The translations under genes and the position numbers were made by a program. A DNA stretch of 64,000 bases, taken from positions 1 through 64,000 of the forward strand of contig JAGXFI010000079.1 in NCBI GenBank assembly GCA_024637305.1, given 5' to 3'. This stretch comes from Sulfitobacter sp. (lineage in GTDB: Bacteria; Pseudomonadota; Alphaproteobacteria; Rhodobacterales; Rhodobacteraceae). This document shows, piece after piece, positions 16,989 through 27,183 of this stretch (positions are counted from its first letter, which is position 1; the number at the start of each line of letters is the position of its first letter). A model generated the notes under the pieces. That model searched no databases, was not told where the DNA came from, and was given only the letters and a program-made list of their open reading frames with translations.

Positions 16989-17449
16989 CTCGCTATTCTG
17001 AAGGTAAGGCAGCCTGATTGAGCGGCGTGTTTCGGTGGGCCTTCGTTTACTTCATGCGCTGCTTCGATGGTGTCCAGACAGTGCTGCCAGAATGTCAGCG
17101 CGCCGGGTGGCTCAGATGATACCCCGAGCATCCAGTCGCCACCCAATGCAAGAAAGATCATTTCTGCCGCGTCCGTCCCGAAACCGCGGTGCCGCCACTC
17201 AGGCCGTATCGTGAATTCCGCAAGCTCATGCGTCCCGTCCCCGTGCGTCCAGACAAGGGCAAAACCGATTGGCTCGGTCCCGAATTCGATAAGATAGGGA
17301 TGACGTCCCCTTTCGCGCCAGTAGCTGTCCAGTGTGACAGGTACATAGGGGGGGCCGTCCGGCAGTACTTCGGCAAAGTAGCTTCGGGCGATCGCGTCAA
17401 GCTCGGCGCGGCGGGTCTCGGGGATCTGGGTAATAGTCAGGCGCGTCAT
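16985..17449 (-). CDS. GNAT family N-acetyltransferase
   Basis: A 154-residue protein with a GNAT core. The acetyl-CoA loop is in the IRPEWRHRGFGTDAAEMIF region (Q/R-x-x-G-x-G/A type) and a C-terminal strand carries ALTFWQHCLDTI. The acceptor amine cannot be deduced. The gene overlaps the transporter ATPase gene (ATGA, 17446-17449) and the P1 peptidase gene (16985-16988), so it is made from the peptide uptake operon and may modify an imported amino compound. Confidence 0.8.
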   Translation of the reverse strand: MTRLTITQIPETRRAELDAIARSYFAEVLPDGPPYVPVTLDSYWRERGRHPYLIEFGTEPIGFALVWTHGDGTHELAEFTIRPEWRHRGFGTDAAEMIFLALGGDWMLGVSSEPPGALTFWQHCLDTIEAAHEVNEGPPKHAAQSGCLTFRIAR

Positions 17450-19041
17450 GCTGAATGTTTCAGTTGCGGAAGCACAGGTGCCGCGTCGATGAGGGCGCGG
17501 GTATAGGGGTGTTGCGGGTTGGTGAATACGTCTTCGGTGGCACCCTGTTCAACGATCTTGCCGGATTTCATCACCAAAACGCGGTCGGTGACGGTGCGCA
17601 CCACGCTAAGGTCGTGAGAGATGAACAGATAGGTCAGATCATAGGCGGCGCAAAGCTCTGCCAGGAGATCGAGGATTTGCGCACGCACGGAAACGTCGAG
17701 CGCGCTGACCGCTTCGTCAAAAAGAATGAGGTCCGGCCGGATGATTAGCGCGCGCGCAATGGCAATGCGCTGGCGCTGGCCGCCCGAGAATTCGTGGATA
17801 TATTTGTGAGCGTCCCGTGGCGTCAGCCCAACAGCTTGAAGGGCTTCGTCGATCGCGCGCACGCGGTCGGCACCTTCAGGCGGGTCGGGCAGCAGATGAA
17901 ATGGTTCCGTAATCAGGCGGTCGACGCGGTGGCGTGGATTGAAGCTGCCGAAGGGGTCCTGGAATACCACCTGCATGCGCCGGCGTACGGCGAGGTTGGG
18001 TTTGGTGCCGGTAAAGACTGGCTCCCCGCCCAGCGTAATGGTGCCGTGCTGGATCTGTTCCAGCCCGAGGATTGCCCGCGTCAGGGTGGATTTGCCGCAG
18101 CCGCTTTCCCCCACAAGGCCTAGGCGTTCACCGCGGTTCAGCGTGAAGCTGACATCGTCCACCGCGCGGAAACTGCCCGGCGCGCCGAAAAGCGTCAGAC
18201 GCGGGGTGCGGTAATCGCGTGATACGCTATTGACCTCCAGCAGCGGTGCGGGAGGCGGTGGCGCGGGCAGGGTCACTTGATGACCCGAAGCGGCAAACAG
18301 CATTCGGGTATAGGGGTGACGCATCTCTTTGAGCAGCGCCTGTGTTTCGCCAAGCTCCACGACTTCGCCATTGCGCATGACGACGATACGGTCGGCCATG
18401 TCGGCCACGACGGCCAGATCATGGGTTATCATCATCAGACCCATCCCGTCTTCGCGCGCAAGCCTTTCCAACAGATCGAGGATCTGCGCCTGGGTGGTCA
18501 CGTCCAGCGCCGTCGTCGGTTCGTCGGCAATCAGCAGACGGGGCTGCAATGCGATCGCCATTGCGATGACGACGCGCTGCCGCTGGCCGCCGGATAGTTC
18601 ATGTGGAAAGCGCGACAGCGGATACCTGTCGTTGGGCAGGCCAACCCGTTCGAGGGTCTGCGCCGCCTGTGCAAAGGCTTCGGATTTGGTGGTTTTTGTG
18701 TGGATCAGGATCGTCTCGGCCACTTGTGCGCCGATGGATTTAACCGGATTGAGGGCGGTCATCGGTTCCTGAAACACCATTCCGATGTCGTTGCCGCGAA
18801 TATTGCAAAGCTCGGATTCGGTAAGCTTGCAGAGATCCCGGTCCCCCAACATAATGCGGCCCGTGATGCTGGCCCCTTTGGGTAGCAACTGCATCGCGGC
18901 AAGGGCCGTCATGGATTTGCCCGACCCGCTCTCACCAGTGACGGCGATAATTTCGCCTGCGGCTATGTCAAATGTTACGCCCTTCAGAATCGGGAACTCA
19001 TGGATTGACATGTTCAGATTTTGGAGGCTGAGCAGCGTCAT
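17446..19041 (-). CDS. Peptide ABC transporter, fused double ATP-binding protein (DppD-DppF/GsiA type)
   Basis: The 531 residues hold two complete ABC ATPase cassettes. The first has Walker A GESGSGKS at about 36-43, LSGGQRQR and the Walker B LLIADEPTTALD. The second has GESGCGKST near 314, FSGGQRQRIAIARAL and LILFDEAVSALD. This is the fused form of the two ATPases that energise dipeptide/oligopeptide importers. It overlaps the DppC-type permease upstream (19038-19041) and the GNAT gene downstream. It belongs with the two permeases and the binding protein at 21496-22974. Confidence 0.93.
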   Translation of the reverse strand: MTLLSLQNLNMSIHEFPILKGVTFDIAAGEIIAVTGESGSGKSMTALAAMQLLPKGASITGRIMLGDRDLCKLTESELCNIRGNDIGMVFQEPMTALNPVKSIGAQVAETILIHTKTTKSEAFAQAAQTLERVGLPNDRYPLSRFPHELSGGQRQRVVIAMAIALQPRLLIADEPTTALDVTTQAQILDLLERLAREDGMGLMMITHDLAVVADMADRIVVMRNGEVVELGETQALLKEMRHPYTRMLFAASGHQVTLPAPPPPAPLLEVNSVSRDYRTPRLTLFGAPGSFRAVDDVSFTLNRGERLGLVGESGCGKSTLTRAILGLEQIQHGTITLGGEPVFTGTKPNLAVRRRMQVVFQDPFGSFNPRHRVDRLITEPFHLLPDPPEGADRVRAIDEALQAVGLTPRDAHKYIHEFSGGQRQRIAIARALIIRPDLILFDEAVSALDVSVRAQILDLLAELCAAYDLTYLFISHDLSVVRTVTDRVLVMKSGKIVEQGATEDVFTNPQHPYTRALIDAAPVLPQLKHSA

Positions 19042-19853
19042 ATGCGCGCCACCCTCAGACGCGGGTCGAGGTAGTCACGCAGGCCGTCGCCCATCAGGTT
19101 CAGCCCCAGCACCGTGAGGATGATGGCAAAGCCGGGCATCAGTGCCATGTGAGGCGCGATACTGACCATCGTTTGTGCATCCGCCAGCATGCGGCCCCAT
19201 GACGGTGTTGGCGGTTGCGCGCCAAGCCCGACATAGCTGAGGCCCGCCTCGGCCAGAATGCCAAGGCTGAATTGGATGGTGCCCTGCACGATCAGCAGGT
19301 TGGTGACGTTCGGCAGAATATGTTCCGCCGAGATACGCGCGGCGGATTTTCCGGCGACCCGCGCGGCAAGGATGAATTCGCGCTCCCACAAGCTCAGAGC
19401 AGCGCCACGGGTGATACGGGCGAATACGGGGATGTTGAAAATACCGATCGCAATGATCGCATTCACGGCACCCGCGCCGAAAATCGCCGTGATCAGGATG
19501 GCGATGACGAGAGACGGAAACGCAAAAACAAGGTCATTGCCGCGCATGATGATCTCGTCCAGCCAACTGCCGCGCCGCGCCGCAGCCCAAAGGCCCAGCG
19601 GGATCCCCAGACCCATGCCAATGCCAACGGCCACTAGCGCCACGGCAATGGATGTGCGCGCACCGACCATGATCATGCTGAGAATGTCCCGGCCAAAATG
19701 GTCCGTTCCCAGAAGACGCTTCATGTTCGGCGGTTGCAGTTTTTCCGGAATGTTCAGGGCCGTGTGATCGAACGGTGTCCAAACGAAGGACAAAAGCGCC
19801 GCAAAGACGAACACTGCAGTCAGCATGCCACCAAAAACAAGGTTGCGGGTCAT
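19038..19853 (-). CDS. Peptide ABC transporter permease (DppC type)
   Basis: The start is placed at 19853 (MTRNLVFGGML), giving 271 residues. Residues read further upstream are Arg/His/Pro-rich and unlike a permease. The protein has an N-terminal helix, the LLGTDHFGRDILS motif of DppC/OppC proteins, about six membrane spans and the EAA-type loop (REFILAARVAGKSAARISAEHILPN region) that docks to the ATPase. The start overlaps the DppB-type stop as ATGA. Confidence 0.93.
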   Translation of the reverse strand: MTRNLVFGGMLTAVFVFAALLSFVWTPFDHTALNIPEKLQPPNMKRLLGTDHFGRDILSMIMVGARTSIAVALVAVGIGMGLGIPLGLWAAARRGSWLDEIIMRGNDLVFAFPSLVIAILITAIFGAGAVNAIIAIGIFNIPVFARITRGAALSLWEREFILAARVAGKSAARISAEHILPNVTNLLIVQGTIQFSLGILAEAGLSYVGLGAQPPTPSWGRMLADAQTMVSIAPHMALMPGFAIILTVLGLNLMGDGLRDYLDPRLRVARI

Positions 19854-20815
19854 GCGCGGGACCTCAGGCGCGGGTCCACTGCGGCGTAGGCTAGATCGAC
19901 GAGGAAGTTCACCAGGATGACGGAAAAAACCAGCAGCATGACCACAGATTCCACGACAATGAGGTCCCGCGCAGAGATGGATTGAAACACCAGTCGACCG
20001 AGGCCGGGAAGGTAGAACACCTGTTCGATGATGATCGACCCCGCGAGAAGGAAGGAGAATTGCAGCCCGATGATGGTCAGTACGGGGATCAGCGCGTTGC
20101 GCACACCGTGCCGCCACAGGGCCTGGCGTGCAGTCAGCCCCTTGGCGCGGGCCGTGCGCATGAAATCTTCGCCCAGCACATCAAGCAGCGAGGACCGCAT
20201 GACCCGCGCAAGAATGGCAGCTTGCGGCAGGGCAAGGGCGATGGCGGGCAGGGTCAGCGAATGCAGACCCGCAAACAGCCCTTCGTCCCATCCGACGAAA
20301 CCCCCGGCAGAAAACCAGCGCAGATTGATCGCAAAGATCAGGACCAGCATCATCGCGAACCAGAAGTTTGGCACGGCGACACCCAGTTGCGTGGCACCCA
20401 TGACCCCGATATCGCCTGCCTGTCCGCGCCGCGCAGCAGCGTAGATGCCAGCCGGGAACGCGATCAGCGTTGACAGTGTCAGCGCGTAAAGTGCGAGCGG
20501 CAGCGACACCCACAAACGCGCACCGATCATTTCGGAAACCGGCGTGCGGTACGTATAGGAAGTGCCGAAATCACCCATCAGCATGCCGGAGGTCCAGGCC
20601 AGGTAGCGTTCGAGTTTCGGGACATCCAGACCCAATTCTGTGCGCAGCGCGGCCAGGGTTTCCGGTTGCGCATTCATGCCAAGCATGAACGAAGCGGGAT
20701 CGCCCGGTGCCACTTCGATCACGCCAAAAATTACCAGCGACGCGATGACGAGGCTGATGGCCAACGAAAAGATACGTTTGAGGGCATAGCGCAACATTCC
20801 TGCGAGATTAGGCAT
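19850..20815 (-). CDS. Peptide ABC transporter permease (DppB type)
   Basis: A 321-residue inner-membrane protein with the N-terminal helix MLRYALKRIFSLAIS and the family motif VIEVAPGDPASFMLG. About six membrane spans follow, with the EAA loop ARAKGLTARQALWRHGVRN and the terminal segment DLAYAAVDPRLR. The first ATG is at 20815, and an internal Met at 20797 is also possible. It is separated from its likely binding-protein gene (21496-22974, same strand) by the oppositely oriented HdeA-like gene, so its own promoter must lie within 20816-20962 or transcription reads through. Confidence 0.92.
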   Translation of the reverse strand: MPNLAGMLRYALKRIFSLAISLVIASLVIFGVIEVAPGDPASFMLGMNAQPETLAALRTELGLDVPKLERYLAWTSGMLMGDFGTSYTYRTPVSEMIGARLWVSLPLALYALTLSTLIAFPAGIYAAARRGQAGDIGVMGATQLGVAVPNFWFAMMLVLIFAINLRWFSAGGFVGWDEGLFAGLHSLTLPAIALALPQAAILARVMRSSLLDVLGEDFMRTARAKGLTARQALWRHGVRNALIPVLTIIGLQFSFLLAGSIIIEQVFYLPGLGRLVFQSISARDLIVVESVVMLLVFSVILVNFLVDLAYAAVDPRLRSRA

Positions 20816-20899: not shown

Positions 20900-20924
20900 G
20901 GAACCATCTTTGAAATGTCGCGTT
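20900..20924 (+). promoter_or_regulatory. EcfG-type general stress promoter
   Basis: GGAAC (20900-20904), a 16-base spacer, then CGTT (20921-20924). This matches the alphaproteobacterial EcfG/sigma-EcfG consensus GGAAC-N16/17-CGTT. The expected transcript start would be near 20931, about 30 bases before the HdeA-like ATG at 20963. Confidence 0.65.
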
Positions 20925-20962
20925 GTTCCTGCAACGACAAACTAGACTACTGGAGAATAAAC

Positions 20963-21376
20963 ATGACAAATTTCTTTAAGACCACCGCCGTCGCAGCCGT
21001 TTTGGCAGCAGCATCTGTATCCTCGCCGGCATTCGCGGCTGCTCACATGGACCTGAATTCCATGACTTGCGAGCAATACAATCAATTGAACGGTGCCGAG
21101 CGTGACAAGGTCGCGGTCATGGCAATTGCAGAGTTGAATGACAACGCGCAGCCAACCGAAGGCACGGCCACGGCGACAGACGACTCGATCGGTACGACGG
21201 CCGAGGAAAGCAACTCGGCAGTTTCCGAAGGTTCCGCCACGGCGACCACTATTGCAAACGCCGACGATGACCTTACTCGTTTTGCCGAAGAAATCCGCGT
21301 TCTGAACCGGACTTGTTCGCGCAACTGGGATGCGATGGTTACCGAAGCCGCAGCAGGCCAGTTCGGCACACGCTAA
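20963..21376 (+). CDS. Small secreted HdeA-like protein
   Basis: The start is at 20963 with TGGAG 8 bases upstream. A Sec signal peptide (about 1-25, cut after AFAA) precedes a mature part of about 112 residues. Two cysteines, one in MTCEQYNQL and one in NRTCSRNWD, bracket the mature chain as in HdeA/HdeB acid-stress chaperones, where they form one disulfide. The middle (about 70-105) is rich in Thr, Ala, Ser and acidic residues and is longer than in E. coli HdeA. The EcfG-type promoter supports a role in stress. HdeA assignment is tentative. Confidence 0.65.
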   Translation: MTNFFKTTAVAAVLAAASVSSPAFAAAHMDLNSMTCEQYNQLNGAERDKVAVMAIAELNDNAQPTEGTATATDDSIGTTAEESNSAVSEGSATATTIANADDDLTRFAEEIRVLNRTCSRNWDAMVTEAAAGQFGTR

Positions 21377-21398: not shown

Positions 21399-21428
21399 AG
21401 CGCGGATACGAGAGTGTCCGCGCTTTTT
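21399..21428 (+). terminator. Intrinsic terminator of the HdeA-like gene
   Basis: The stem AGCGCGGATAC / GTGTCCGCGCT (21399-21409, 21414-21424; one G-T pair) closes a GAGA tetraloop and runs into TTTTT. It lies 22 bases after the stop codon. Confidence 0.85.
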
Positions 21429-21456: not shown

Positions 21457-21487
21457 AAAACAGGCTCCCGCGTGCTGCGGGAGCCTG
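21457..21487 (-). terminator. Intrinsic terminator of the peptide-binding protein gene
   Basis: Perfect 11-bp stem CAGGCTCCCGC / GCGGGAGCCTG (21461-21471, 21477-21487) with a 5-base loop. On the minus strand it is followed by TTTTCC. It lies just beyond the SBP stop, so it would end that transcript before the HdeA-like gene. Confidence 0.8.
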
Positions 21488-21495
21488 TTATGGGA

Positions 21496-22974
21496 TCAGT
21501 CAGCCCAGCTGACGCCTGTCAGGTCCGTTGCCTGTGTCGGTGCGTTGGACCACAGCCCCTGCACGCCTGTTTTTGCCACCGAAAGAGCGGCAAGTTGGAA
21601 CAGATATCCGTTCACGTAATCATCCGCGATCATGCGCTGCGCGTCTGCCATAAGCGTGTTGCGGGTTTCAGGATCCGTCGTTTCGTTCAGTTTGGTCATC
21701 AGTGCCTGAAATTCCGGGTTGTCGTATTGGAAATAGTAGTCCGGATTGGCGTAGATGCCGATGTCCATAGGTTCGGTATGGGACACGATGGTCAGACCAA
21801 AATCCTTGCCCTTGAAGACCGATTCCAGCCACTGCGCCCATTCGACGTTTGTGATGTTGGCAGTGATCCCCACCTCGGCCAGTTGCGACGCGATGATTTC
21901 GCCCCCGCGACGGGCATAAGACGGCGGCGGAAGGTACAGCGTTGTTTCAAATCCGTCCGGAAACCCTGCTTCGGCCAGGAGCGCTTTGGATTTTTCGGGA
22001 TCAAAGACGCTTTGCCCGGTAAGGTCAACATAAGCAGGATTATGCGGTGCGAAATGCGTCCCGATGGGCGTGCCATAACCGAACATGGCACCGTCGATGA
22101 TTGCCTGTCTGTTGATGGCACGAGCGACAGCTTGGCGAACCTTGATGTTGTCGAAGGGGGCGACCTTGTTGTTCATCGCGAGAATCGTCTCGCCCTCGGT
22201 CGACCCGACGAGCACCTGAAAGCGCGGGTCGGCTTCGAACTGCGGTAGGTTCTCCGGGGCGGGAAAGCCACTGAAGACGTCGACGTCTTCGGCCATAACG
22301 GACGCAAAAGCGGCGGTCGGGTCGGAGATGAATTTGAATGTCACATCCGCGAGGTTGGCAGGCGTTCCCCAATAAGCGGGGTTGCGGGACAGTTTGATGT
22401 TGTCGCCCTGCGTCCAGCTGTCGAATTTGAAGGCACCCGTCCCGATAGGTGTCTGTTTGATCTGGTCGATGGATTCAGGTGCCACGATCACTGCATCGCC
22501 CCATGCCAGGTTGAAGAGGAACTGACCGTTAGGTTTGTCCAACGTCACCTTGACTGTTTGCGGGTCGACCGCCTCGACCGATGTGATGCCGTCAAAGAGC
22601 GCCTTTTGCGCGTTCACGCTGTCCTCGGCGCGGGCGCGATCAAGGGTGAACACCACGTCTTCGGCGTCCATCGTGGTGCCGTCGTGGAAAGTTACGCCGT
22701 CGCGGAGCTTGAAAGTATAGACCGTCCCGTCGTCGCTGATTTCCCAGCTTTTCGCGAGACCCGCCACGACGGAACCGTCGCCCATGAAGCGGGTAAGCCC
22801 CTCGAACACATTCGAATAGAGAACCGAATCGATAGCCCCGGCTGCGGCGCTGGTCGGATCGAGATGCGGCGGCTCAAGCTGCATTGCAACGGTGATATCG
22901 TCCTTTGCCAACGCGCTTCCAGCTACGAGAGCAGCGGTGGCGGTGCCAATCAGAAGGTGTCGAATGAGTTTCAC
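21496..22974 (-). CDS. Peptide ABC transporter substrate-binding protein (SBP_bac_5)
   Basis: The 492-residue periplasmic binding protein has a Sec signal peptide (about 1-23, cut after GSALA). Family 5 features follow: AKSWEISDDGTVYTFKLRDGVTFHDG, TPIGTGAFKFDSWTQGD and a C-terminal hinge region. There is no lipobox Cys. It would deliver di- or oligopeptides, or similar amphipathic compounds, to the permeases at 19038-20815. It follows the M20 deacylase gene by about 109 bases, with a hairpin at 23063-23085 between them, and ends in a strong terminator. Confidence 0.93.
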   Translation of the reverse strand: MKLIRHLLIGTATAALVAGSALAKDDITVAMQLEPPHLDPTSAAAGAIDSVLYSNVFEGLTRFMGDGSVVAGLAKSWEISDDGTVYTFKLRDGVTFHDGTTMDAEDVVFTLDRARAEDSVNAQKALFDGITSVEAVDPQTVKVTLDKPNGQFLFNLAWGDAVIVAPESIDQIKQTPIGTGAFKFDSWTQGDNIKLSRNPAYWGTPANLADVTFKFISDPTAAFASVMAEDVDVFSGFPAPENLPQFEADPRFQVLVGSTEGETILAMNNKVAPFDNIKVRQAVARAINRQAIIDGAMFGYGTPIGTHFAPHNPAYVDLTGQSVFDPEKSKALLAEAGFPDGFETTLYLPPPSYARRGGEIIASQLAEVGITANITNVEWAQWLESVFKGKDFGLTIVSHTEPMDIGIYANPDYYFQYDNPEFQALMTKLNETTDPETRNTLMADAQRMIADDYVNGYLFQLAALSVAKTGVQGLWSNAPTQATDLTGVSWAD

Positions 22975-25761: not shown

Positions 25762-26622
25762 ATGCAGCAGGAATCATCATTCGCGCTATATTGGGCAGCG
25801 ATCAAAGGCAGCTTCGTAAAAATCACCGAAACGAATATGCCGCTGATCTCTGCCGGAGTCGCGTTTTTCGTGATGCTGTCGATTTTTCCCGCCCTCGCGG
25901 CGCTGATCGCAATTTTCGGTTTGATAGCAAACCCGGCGGTCGTGGTCGCGCAATTGGAACAGATGCGGGGCCTGCTGCCAAATGACGTCTACGAAATCAT
26001 CAACAAACAGGTGGTCACGCTCGTCAGCACGAGTTCCGATAAGCTGGGATGGGCCAGTATCATATCCTTGCTTGCGGCACTTTGGTCCGCGCGTGCGGGT
26101 GTCGGCGCGCTGATGATCGGGTTGAATGCCGTCCAGGACGAACGGAACCGGGGTGCCGCACGGCATTATGCGCGGGCATTGTTGCTGACGATTTCGTTGG
26201 TCGCTGTCGGGATCGTCGCCTTGCTGACGGTGGTTGTGGCTCCGGTCGTGCTGGCGTTCCTGCCGCTTGGACCATTAGGCAATTTTGTCGCGGACGTGGT
26301 GCGGTGGACAATTGCCATTCTTGTGCTGCTGGGGGGGCTCAGCGTCCTGTACCGGTTCGGCTCCAACCGAAGACACAAGCGCTACAGGCTGATTACGATC
26401 GGGTCCGTTTTCGCCGTGCTTAGCTGGGCGCTGGTTTCCATCGGGTTTTCTTACTACGTGAAGAATTTCGGGAGTTACAATCAGGTCTATGGGTCTATCG
26501 GTGCGGTGATCGCGATGCTTGTCTGGCTTTGGATCAGCAGCTTCCTCGTGCTGCTGGGGGCGGCGCTGAATGCGCAGATCGACAGGCGGACAGGGGCTGT
26601 GCCAACCCAGACCAATGAATGA
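25762..26622 (+). CDS. YihY/BrkB family inner-membrane protein
   Basis: The start at 25762 follows a purine-rich GGGAAGGCGAAG. The protein has 286 residues, with about six membrane helices and the family signatures ISAGVAFFVMLSIFPALAAL and a C-terminal YGSIGAVIAMLVWLWISSF. The family was once called ribonuclease BN by mistake. Its transport or envelope role is unresolved. It is convergent with the XRE-cupin gene, with 9 bases between stops. No operon partner is visible. Confidence 0.9.
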   Translation: MQQESSFALYWAAIKGSFVKITETNMPLISAGVAFFVMLSIFPALAALIAIFGLIANPAVVVAQLEQMRGLLPNDVYEIINKQVVTLVSTSSDKLGWASIISLLAALWSARAGVGALMIGLNAVQDERNRGAARHYARALLLTISLVAVGIVALLTVVVAPVVLAFLPLGPLGNFVADVVRWTIAILVLLGGLSVLYRFGSNRRHKRYRLITIGSVFAVLSWALVSIGFSYYVKNFGSYNQVYGSIGAVIAMLVWLWISSFLVLLGAALNAQIDRRTGAVPTQTNE

Positions 26623-26631
26623 CAGAAGGCT

Positions 26632-27183
26632 CTAGAAAGAAGGCGGCGTGCAGGCACTGACAATGACGCAGACCGTATCGCCGGTGTTTTGGAACCGGTG
26701 CGGCAGGCGGCTGTCAAAAATGTAGCCATGCCCGGTTTCCAGCGTGGCGGTACGGTCGCCAACCGTCAATTCGATGCGTCCGCTGATGACGACGCCTGCT
26801 TCTTCGCCATCGTGTTCAATCAGTTCGGGACCGGTGTCGGCACCCGGCGGATAGGATTCGTGCAAGACCTGAAGGGTATGTTGCTGAGCATTGCCCAGTT
26901 GCCGCAGGGAAACCTGACCCGGGGTGCGGGCGGCCAGTTCCGTGAATTCGTCGGGGGCGTAGAAGACCTTGGGCGTGTCGTTTTCCTCAAGGGTCGCGAA
27001 AAACTCCGCCATGCTGATCGGAATCGCGTCCAGCAGACTCTTGAGCGACGCGACGGACGGGCTTGTCCGGTTCTTTTCGATCAGTGAGATCGTTCCGTTG
27101 GTCAATCCGGCCCGCGCGGCCAGTTCGCGTTGCGACAGCCCACGGGTTTTGCGGATCGTTTTTAGCCTGTCACCGATGTCCAC
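26632..27183 (-). CDS. XRE-family regulator with cupin domain (PuuR-like)
   Basis: The 183-residue protein has an N-terminal helix-turn-helix (about 4-60: GDRLKTIRKTRGLSQREL, NGTISLIEKNRTSPS) and a C-terminal cupin (about 108-178: YPPGADTGPELIEHDGEEAGVV, ETGHGYIFDSRLPHRF). This is the architecture of PuuR-type repressors of putrescine and GABA catabolism. It is divergent from a GABA aminotransferase gene, so it probably controls it, with the effector sensed in the cupin. Confidence 0.9.
   Translation of the reverse strand: MDIGDRLKTIRKTRGLSQRELAARAGLTNGTISLIEKNRTSPSVASLKSLLDAIPISMAEFFATLEENDTPKVFYAPDEFTELAARTPGQVSLRQLGNAQQHTLQVLHESYPPGADTGPELIEHDGEEAGVVISGRIELTVGDRTATLETGHGYIFDSRLPHRFQNTGDTVCVIVSACTPPSF

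Follow-up and report, generated by a model that had tools for sequence, protein, structure and literature searches.

A putative general-stress unit in Sulfitobacter with an EcfG-type promoter and an HdeA-family gene

On balance, the evidence suggests that Sulfitobacter carries a self-contained general-stress unit, which would probably consist of an EcfG-type promoter, a single HdeA-family gene with a periplasmic product, and a terminator. The unit lies in a window (the whole 64,000-nucleotide stretch of DNA that was analysed) on contig C105 of 183 in a draft Sulfitobacter genome.

The HdeA-like protein and its locus

The hdeA-like gene is found within a peptide-type ABC transporter operon (Table 1). 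The preliminary description had placed it antisense between the binding protein and its permeases, and had predicted a small secreted protein with two cysteines. Both statements hold: the gene is on the plus strand and both flanking genes are on the minus strand, and the product has a signal peptide, C36 and C118. In many relatives, a histone-deacetylase-family gene (L043:13654-14781; Pfam Hist_deacetyl, E 9e-66) adjoins the hdeA-like gene. This neighbour is absent from the site in the window, and only distant homologues of it occur elsewhere in this genome.

Table 1. Features of the hdeA-like unit and its host operon (window positions)
Feature	Position	Strand	Support
EcfG-type -35 element GGAAC	20900..20904	+	sequence; retained in 34/34 genus relatives
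EcfG-type -10 element CGTT	20921..20924	+	sequence; GTT at N16/17 spacing in 32/34 relatives
Expected transcript start, ~7 nt past -10	20931	+	predicted from promoter geometry
Ribosome-binding site GGAG	20952..20955	+	sequence
HdeA-like secreted protein, 137 aa (mature 112 aa)	20963..21376	+	Pfam PF06411, Foldseek
Signal peptide, residues 1-25, predicted cleavage between AFA and AA	20963..21037	+	sequence; kept in alignment
Cys36 codon, invariant	21068..21070	+	alignments
Thr/Ser/Ala/acid-rich insert, 44 residues (61-104)	21143..21274	+	absent from 68-aa short forms
Cys118 codon, invariant	21314..21316	+	alignments
Intrinsic terminator of hdeA-like unit, hairpin and T run	21399..21428	+	fold -24.8 kcal/mol, z -4.9
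Terminator-like hairpin 3' of binding-protein gene	21459..21491	-	fold -26.7 kcal/mol, z -8.2
SBP_bac_5 peptide-type binding protein, host operon	21496..22974	-	Pfam E 2.7e-92
Peptide-type ABC permease, host operon	19850..20815	-	Pfam BPD_transp_1 E 1.6e-36
Second permease, host operon; true start probably further in	19038..20117	-	ORF list, conserved position
Double ABC ATPase, host operon	17446..19041	-	ORF list, conserved position

The proposed HdeA-like identity was borne out by the Pfam HdeA model (PF06411), which the window protein matches with 32.1 bits, the cut-off being 22, and by the predicted structure, for which the first Foldseek matches are HdeA and HdeB. The Pfam match (residues 10-60) spans the N-terminal half only; the same family is matched by 22 of 22 relatives, with E-values up to 0.1, and NCBIfam held no family for the window protein. 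AlphaFold predicts a helical core at pLDDT 70-90. All eight Foldseek matches of the long form, obtained in the comparison with HdeA that had been suggested as a check, are HdeA or HdeB. Matched structures include 1dj8, 1bg8, 2xuv and 4xvv, with TM-scores of about 0.6-0.7 normalized by target. Foldseek probabilities reach 0.99 for the long form and 1.00 for a short form, with weak E-values (best 0.19 and 0.04). This natural 68-residue short form gave a better model (pLDDT 80.7), and its top eight matches were HdeA or HdeB, followed by YmgD. A PDB sequence search with the alignment gave no matches. The same search with the short form gave only a doubtful match to a designed helical repeat, which was rejected, and YmgD at E 1.1.

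In the genus alignments both cysteines are invariant, the EAA end is invariant or nearly so, and the signal peptide is conserved. The open frame, signal peptide, both cysteines and the promoter are retained down to about 30-40% identity. C36 and C118 are expected with considerable confidence to form the HdeA disulfide. Holdase activity is suggested by family membership, and we give it about an even chance.

The middle of the protein, rich in Thr, Ala and acidic residues, had been described as unlike E. coli HdeA, and it proved to be a predicted disordered insert that separates the two halves (pLDDT below 50 at residues 61-100, or mature residues 36-75). Genus-wide, the insert comprises 43-68 residues with 7-20 Asp/Glu, 0-2 Lys/Arg and few hydrophobics; it accounts for over a third of the mature protein, and its sequence drifts fast while its acidity stays. 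The calculated net charge is about -12 at pH 7 and +1.4 at pH 4. Insert-free forms of 68 aa occur in two species (G011 and G083). Only these members fit the compact build of about 70-90 mature residues, with no long disordered insert, that is typical of HdeA though not strictly defining; the Pfam assignment is unaffected by the insert. A role of the loop in solubility, or in a response to pH or salt, is a speculative suggestion that we regard as doubtful.

The promoter and the EcfG-NepR-PhyR system

The motif GGAAC-N16-CGTT (20900-20924) is correctly spaced to the start of the gene, as had been claimed: the ATG at 20963 follows at a quoted distance of 63 nt, with GGAG in between. The motif alone is no evidence, because shuffles of the window give 2.49 matches, compared with one match in the window itself. 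Genome-wide, GGAACN16-17CGTT has 78 matches and a reversed control pattern has 131. The motif count, enriched neither in the window nor in the genome, was rejected as proof of a promoter.

Conservation across the genus carries the weight instead. Upstream of orthologues and paralogues in the genus, GGAAC-N15-18-GTT is present in 33 of 34 regions and GGAAC-N16/17-NGTT occurs at -51 to -82 in 32 of 34, counts that are inflated by near-identical, partly non-independent rows, while the flanking DNA of the others is widely different. Shuffled upstream regions gave a mean of 0.26 matches and a maximum of 2, and the reverse strands gave 2. One match, at -128 in L010, is a chance match; in both L009 and L010, GGAAC stands at the expected position and GTTGT is replaced by ATTGT. 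The promoter is also retained where the surrounding DNA differs, including the copies in G022, in G025, on contig 18 of G027 and on the SK025 plasmid. On the strength of this conservation, we take the predicted promoter to be real.

All three regulators have genes in the source genome: NepR (E 2.7e-13), PhyR (E 3.7e-105) and, as an EcfG-like ORF, the sigma factor. The gap between nepR and phyR has the same GGAAC-type motif reading in either direction, a pattern shared by five of the six relatives that were checked. Because the promoter is conserved, the three regulators are encoded and the motif is shared with the nepR-phyR gap, dependence of the hdeA-like gene on EcfG is very probable. Ten relatives carry nepR-ecfG and the hdeA-like gene on a single contig, and in nine of them, all except G008, the two are separated by about 8-15 kb.

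The two EcfG-type promoters in the nepR-phyR gap (L041:1713-1745, and also L031-L034 and L036) overlap and are interleaved in opposite directions (GGAACCTAACGC...GCGTTGGGTTCC), forming one near-palindrome that serves both directions. The nepR-ecfG-phyR cluster of relatives occupies about 6 kb between genes for BrkB and an HTH-cupin protein. In the window, 10 bp (26622-26632) separate the same two genes, and the cluster is on contig C4 (G000, L041:962-2575); therefore, either the cluster has moved or the assembly differs.

Distribution, history and movement of the unit

The hdeA-like gene was found in 29 of 36 same-genus genomes of a first sample. Each of the seven genomes without a match was opened, and the site holds no such gene. 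In a second genome set, five genomes below the Pfam threshold bear divergent forms at the transporter site. Among 297 other genera of the family, a single protein (G212) scored; only its signal-peptide half aligns and it has no cysteines, and it was rejected as a relative. A class-wide sample had the gene in none of 262 other genera. Ordinary HdeA-family proteins, either short forms or a longer protein, occur in six of the 297 genera, and one of these (L136) has the only promoter-motif match among them, a loose one.

The idea that a stress gene was set into an older operon is supported, because in the closest sister genera the binding protein and permease of the transporter are present, and neither the hdeA-like gene nor the motif occurs at the site. 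In a permease tree Sulfitobacter forms a single branch (99/99), on which presence and absence of the gene require at least nine changes, with scattered absences. The distances of hdeA-like and permease sequences correlate weakly (rho 0.33; none of 999 permutations as high). The single genus branch, the scattered absences and this correlation fit one old acquisition followed by several losses; the transporter site may also have gained the gene more than once. G030 has no such gene but retains GGAAC-N17-CGTT together with a hairpin of terminator type (z -5.7), in what looks like a scar of gene loss. This promoter-terminator scar (L125), located some 75-200 nt upstream of where the permease gene starts, might still give rise to a short stress-induced RNA.

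The unit of promoter, gene and terminator has other, unrelated locations as well, and each copy there has a promoter of its own. It lies about 1.2 kb from phyR-ecfG in G022, and on the 5.9-kb MOBQ plasmid of Sulfitobacter sp. SK025 (NZ_CP025814.1) it fills a slot at 1610-2660. The Phaeobacter inhibens plasmid pP24_h has a backbone 87-98% identical to that of the SK025 plasmid, and its slot holds two other genes. Since the unit is found on a plasmid, in a nest of insertion sequences and beside phyR-ecfG, each time with its own promoter, the three parts seem to travel together and the stress gene seems to be portable cargo.

Further copies were observed in two genomes. The second hdeA-like copy of G025 (L174:4918-5358) has its own promoter and sits amid IS3-type, IS66 and other transposase genes. 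G027 has a tandem pair of hdeA-like genes at the transporter site, and its contig 18 (L173:1876-4402), which bears plasmid-type genes such as those for resolvase and ParA, has an ECF-type sigma factor gene with an hdeA-like copy on either side.

Proposed function, alternatives and relation to known systems

We hypothesize that under stress PhyR would be phosphorylated and would withdraw NepR from EcfG, after which EcfG-RNA polymerase would initiate near 20931. The product would be exported and the disulfide formed, and the small helical core could then act as a holdase that binds unfolding proteins of the periplasm independently of ATP, with the 44-residue polar and acidic disordered loop perhaps keeping the protein soluble and setting a response to pH or salt. 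On this view the Sulfitobacter lineage gained the unit, which would have entered the peptide-transporter operon, been moved as well by plasmid and near transposases, and been lost again in several species. The slightly alkaline marine habitat does not require a chaperone for extreme acid and the trigger need not be acid; several Sulfitobacter species manage without the gene.

GGAAC is a common -35 element of ECF sigma factors in general, so another ECF sigma factor could use the site. The promoter might then be read by a different or by several such factors, and the gene would answer envelope stress rather than general stress. The copy on contig 18 of G027 adjoins the gene of another ECF-type sigma factor, and PhyR of Rhodobacter sphaeroides concerns chiefly membrane stress (PMC5830050). 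We nevertheless consider this improbable, given that spacing and -10 element match both the Sphingomonas EcfG sites (PMC6599016) and the nepR-phyR sites of the genus, and that nepR-ecfG is some 8-15 kb away from the gene in nine of the ten relatives that have both on a single contig. Less probable still is a neutral passenger, a plasmid cargo gene caught in the operon and decaying. The scattered absences, with their nine or more changes on the permease tree, and the G030 scar would suit such decay, but the retention of frame, signal peptide, cysteines and promoter in highly diverged copies makes it very unlikely.

A more serious alternative, which we hold to be possible though short of probable, is that the HdeA fold does another job here (salt, osmotic or metal stress, envelope binding, or inhibition of a partner), with the acidic loop as its working part. 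The marine habitat, the size of the loop and its constant acidity despite sequence drift are in keeping with this, as are the increase of HdeA in Methylocystis under a salt-like NH4+ load (PMC9600857) and the presence of YmgD, of the same fold class, among the weaker Foldseek matches. Against it, conservation falls on the HdeA core (both cysteines and the EAA end), the loop varies freely, and two species do without it. The general-stress unit with an HdeA-type chaperone could also be extended, tentatively and with less than even confidence, to a mobile cassette that is plasmid-borne, pre-wired to EcfG and of the HdeA class, with a loop tuned to non-acid marine stresses; being pre-wired to the EcfG of its host, it would join the stress regulon wherever it landed.

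If the proposal is correct, a general-stress regulon can grow by horizontal transfer of single genes that bring a fitting sigma-factor promoter with them, and HdeA, familiar from enteric bacteria as an acid chaperone, would be tied to the alphaproteobacterial general stress response. Long-loop and loop-free versions occur naturally behind promoters of one kind, so that the role of the disordered insert in a chaperone can be tested directly. A literature search found HdeA and EcfG named together in two papers, with no link between them in the one examined, and did not tie HdeA to Sulfitobacter or Rhodobacteraceae, an absence that is weak evidence as subscription journals were largely outside its coverage. 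What appears to be new is the joint movement of promoter, gene and terminator, together with the fast-changing disordered loop.

The protein resembles HdeA and HdeB of Enterobacteriaceae (PF06411) in being small and secreted, with two cysteines and a helical core, and differs from them in the acidic disordered insert of 43-68 residues that most members have between the cysteine-bearing halves. E. coli HdeA is controlled by RpoS, GadE and H-NS, whereas the Sulfitobacter gene has a predicted EcfG-type promoter and, unlike its enteric counterparts, lies outside any acid-resistance island. Brucella also has an alphaproteobacterial HdeA; hdeA of Brucella ovis is reported to be under the control of MucR (PMC8843074), not of PhyR-EcfG, in contrast to the EcfG-type promoter of the Sulfitobacter unit. 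Motif, spacing and distance to the start are the same as in promoters of the EcfG (RpoE2, SigT) regulon, GGAAC-N16-20-GTT, given as GGAAC-N17-20-GTT for Sphingomonas (PMC6599016). Such promoters are usually described for chromosomal stress genes, whereas here they are also found on a plasmid or near insertion sequences, with one gene. Phage morons are single-gene units with their own promoter and terminator, and offer a general analogy for a promoter-gene-terminator unit within a foreign operon; they differ in that the carriers here are plasmids, insertion-sequence surroundings and an ABC transporter operon, and in that the promoter is of the type read by a stress sigma factor of the host.
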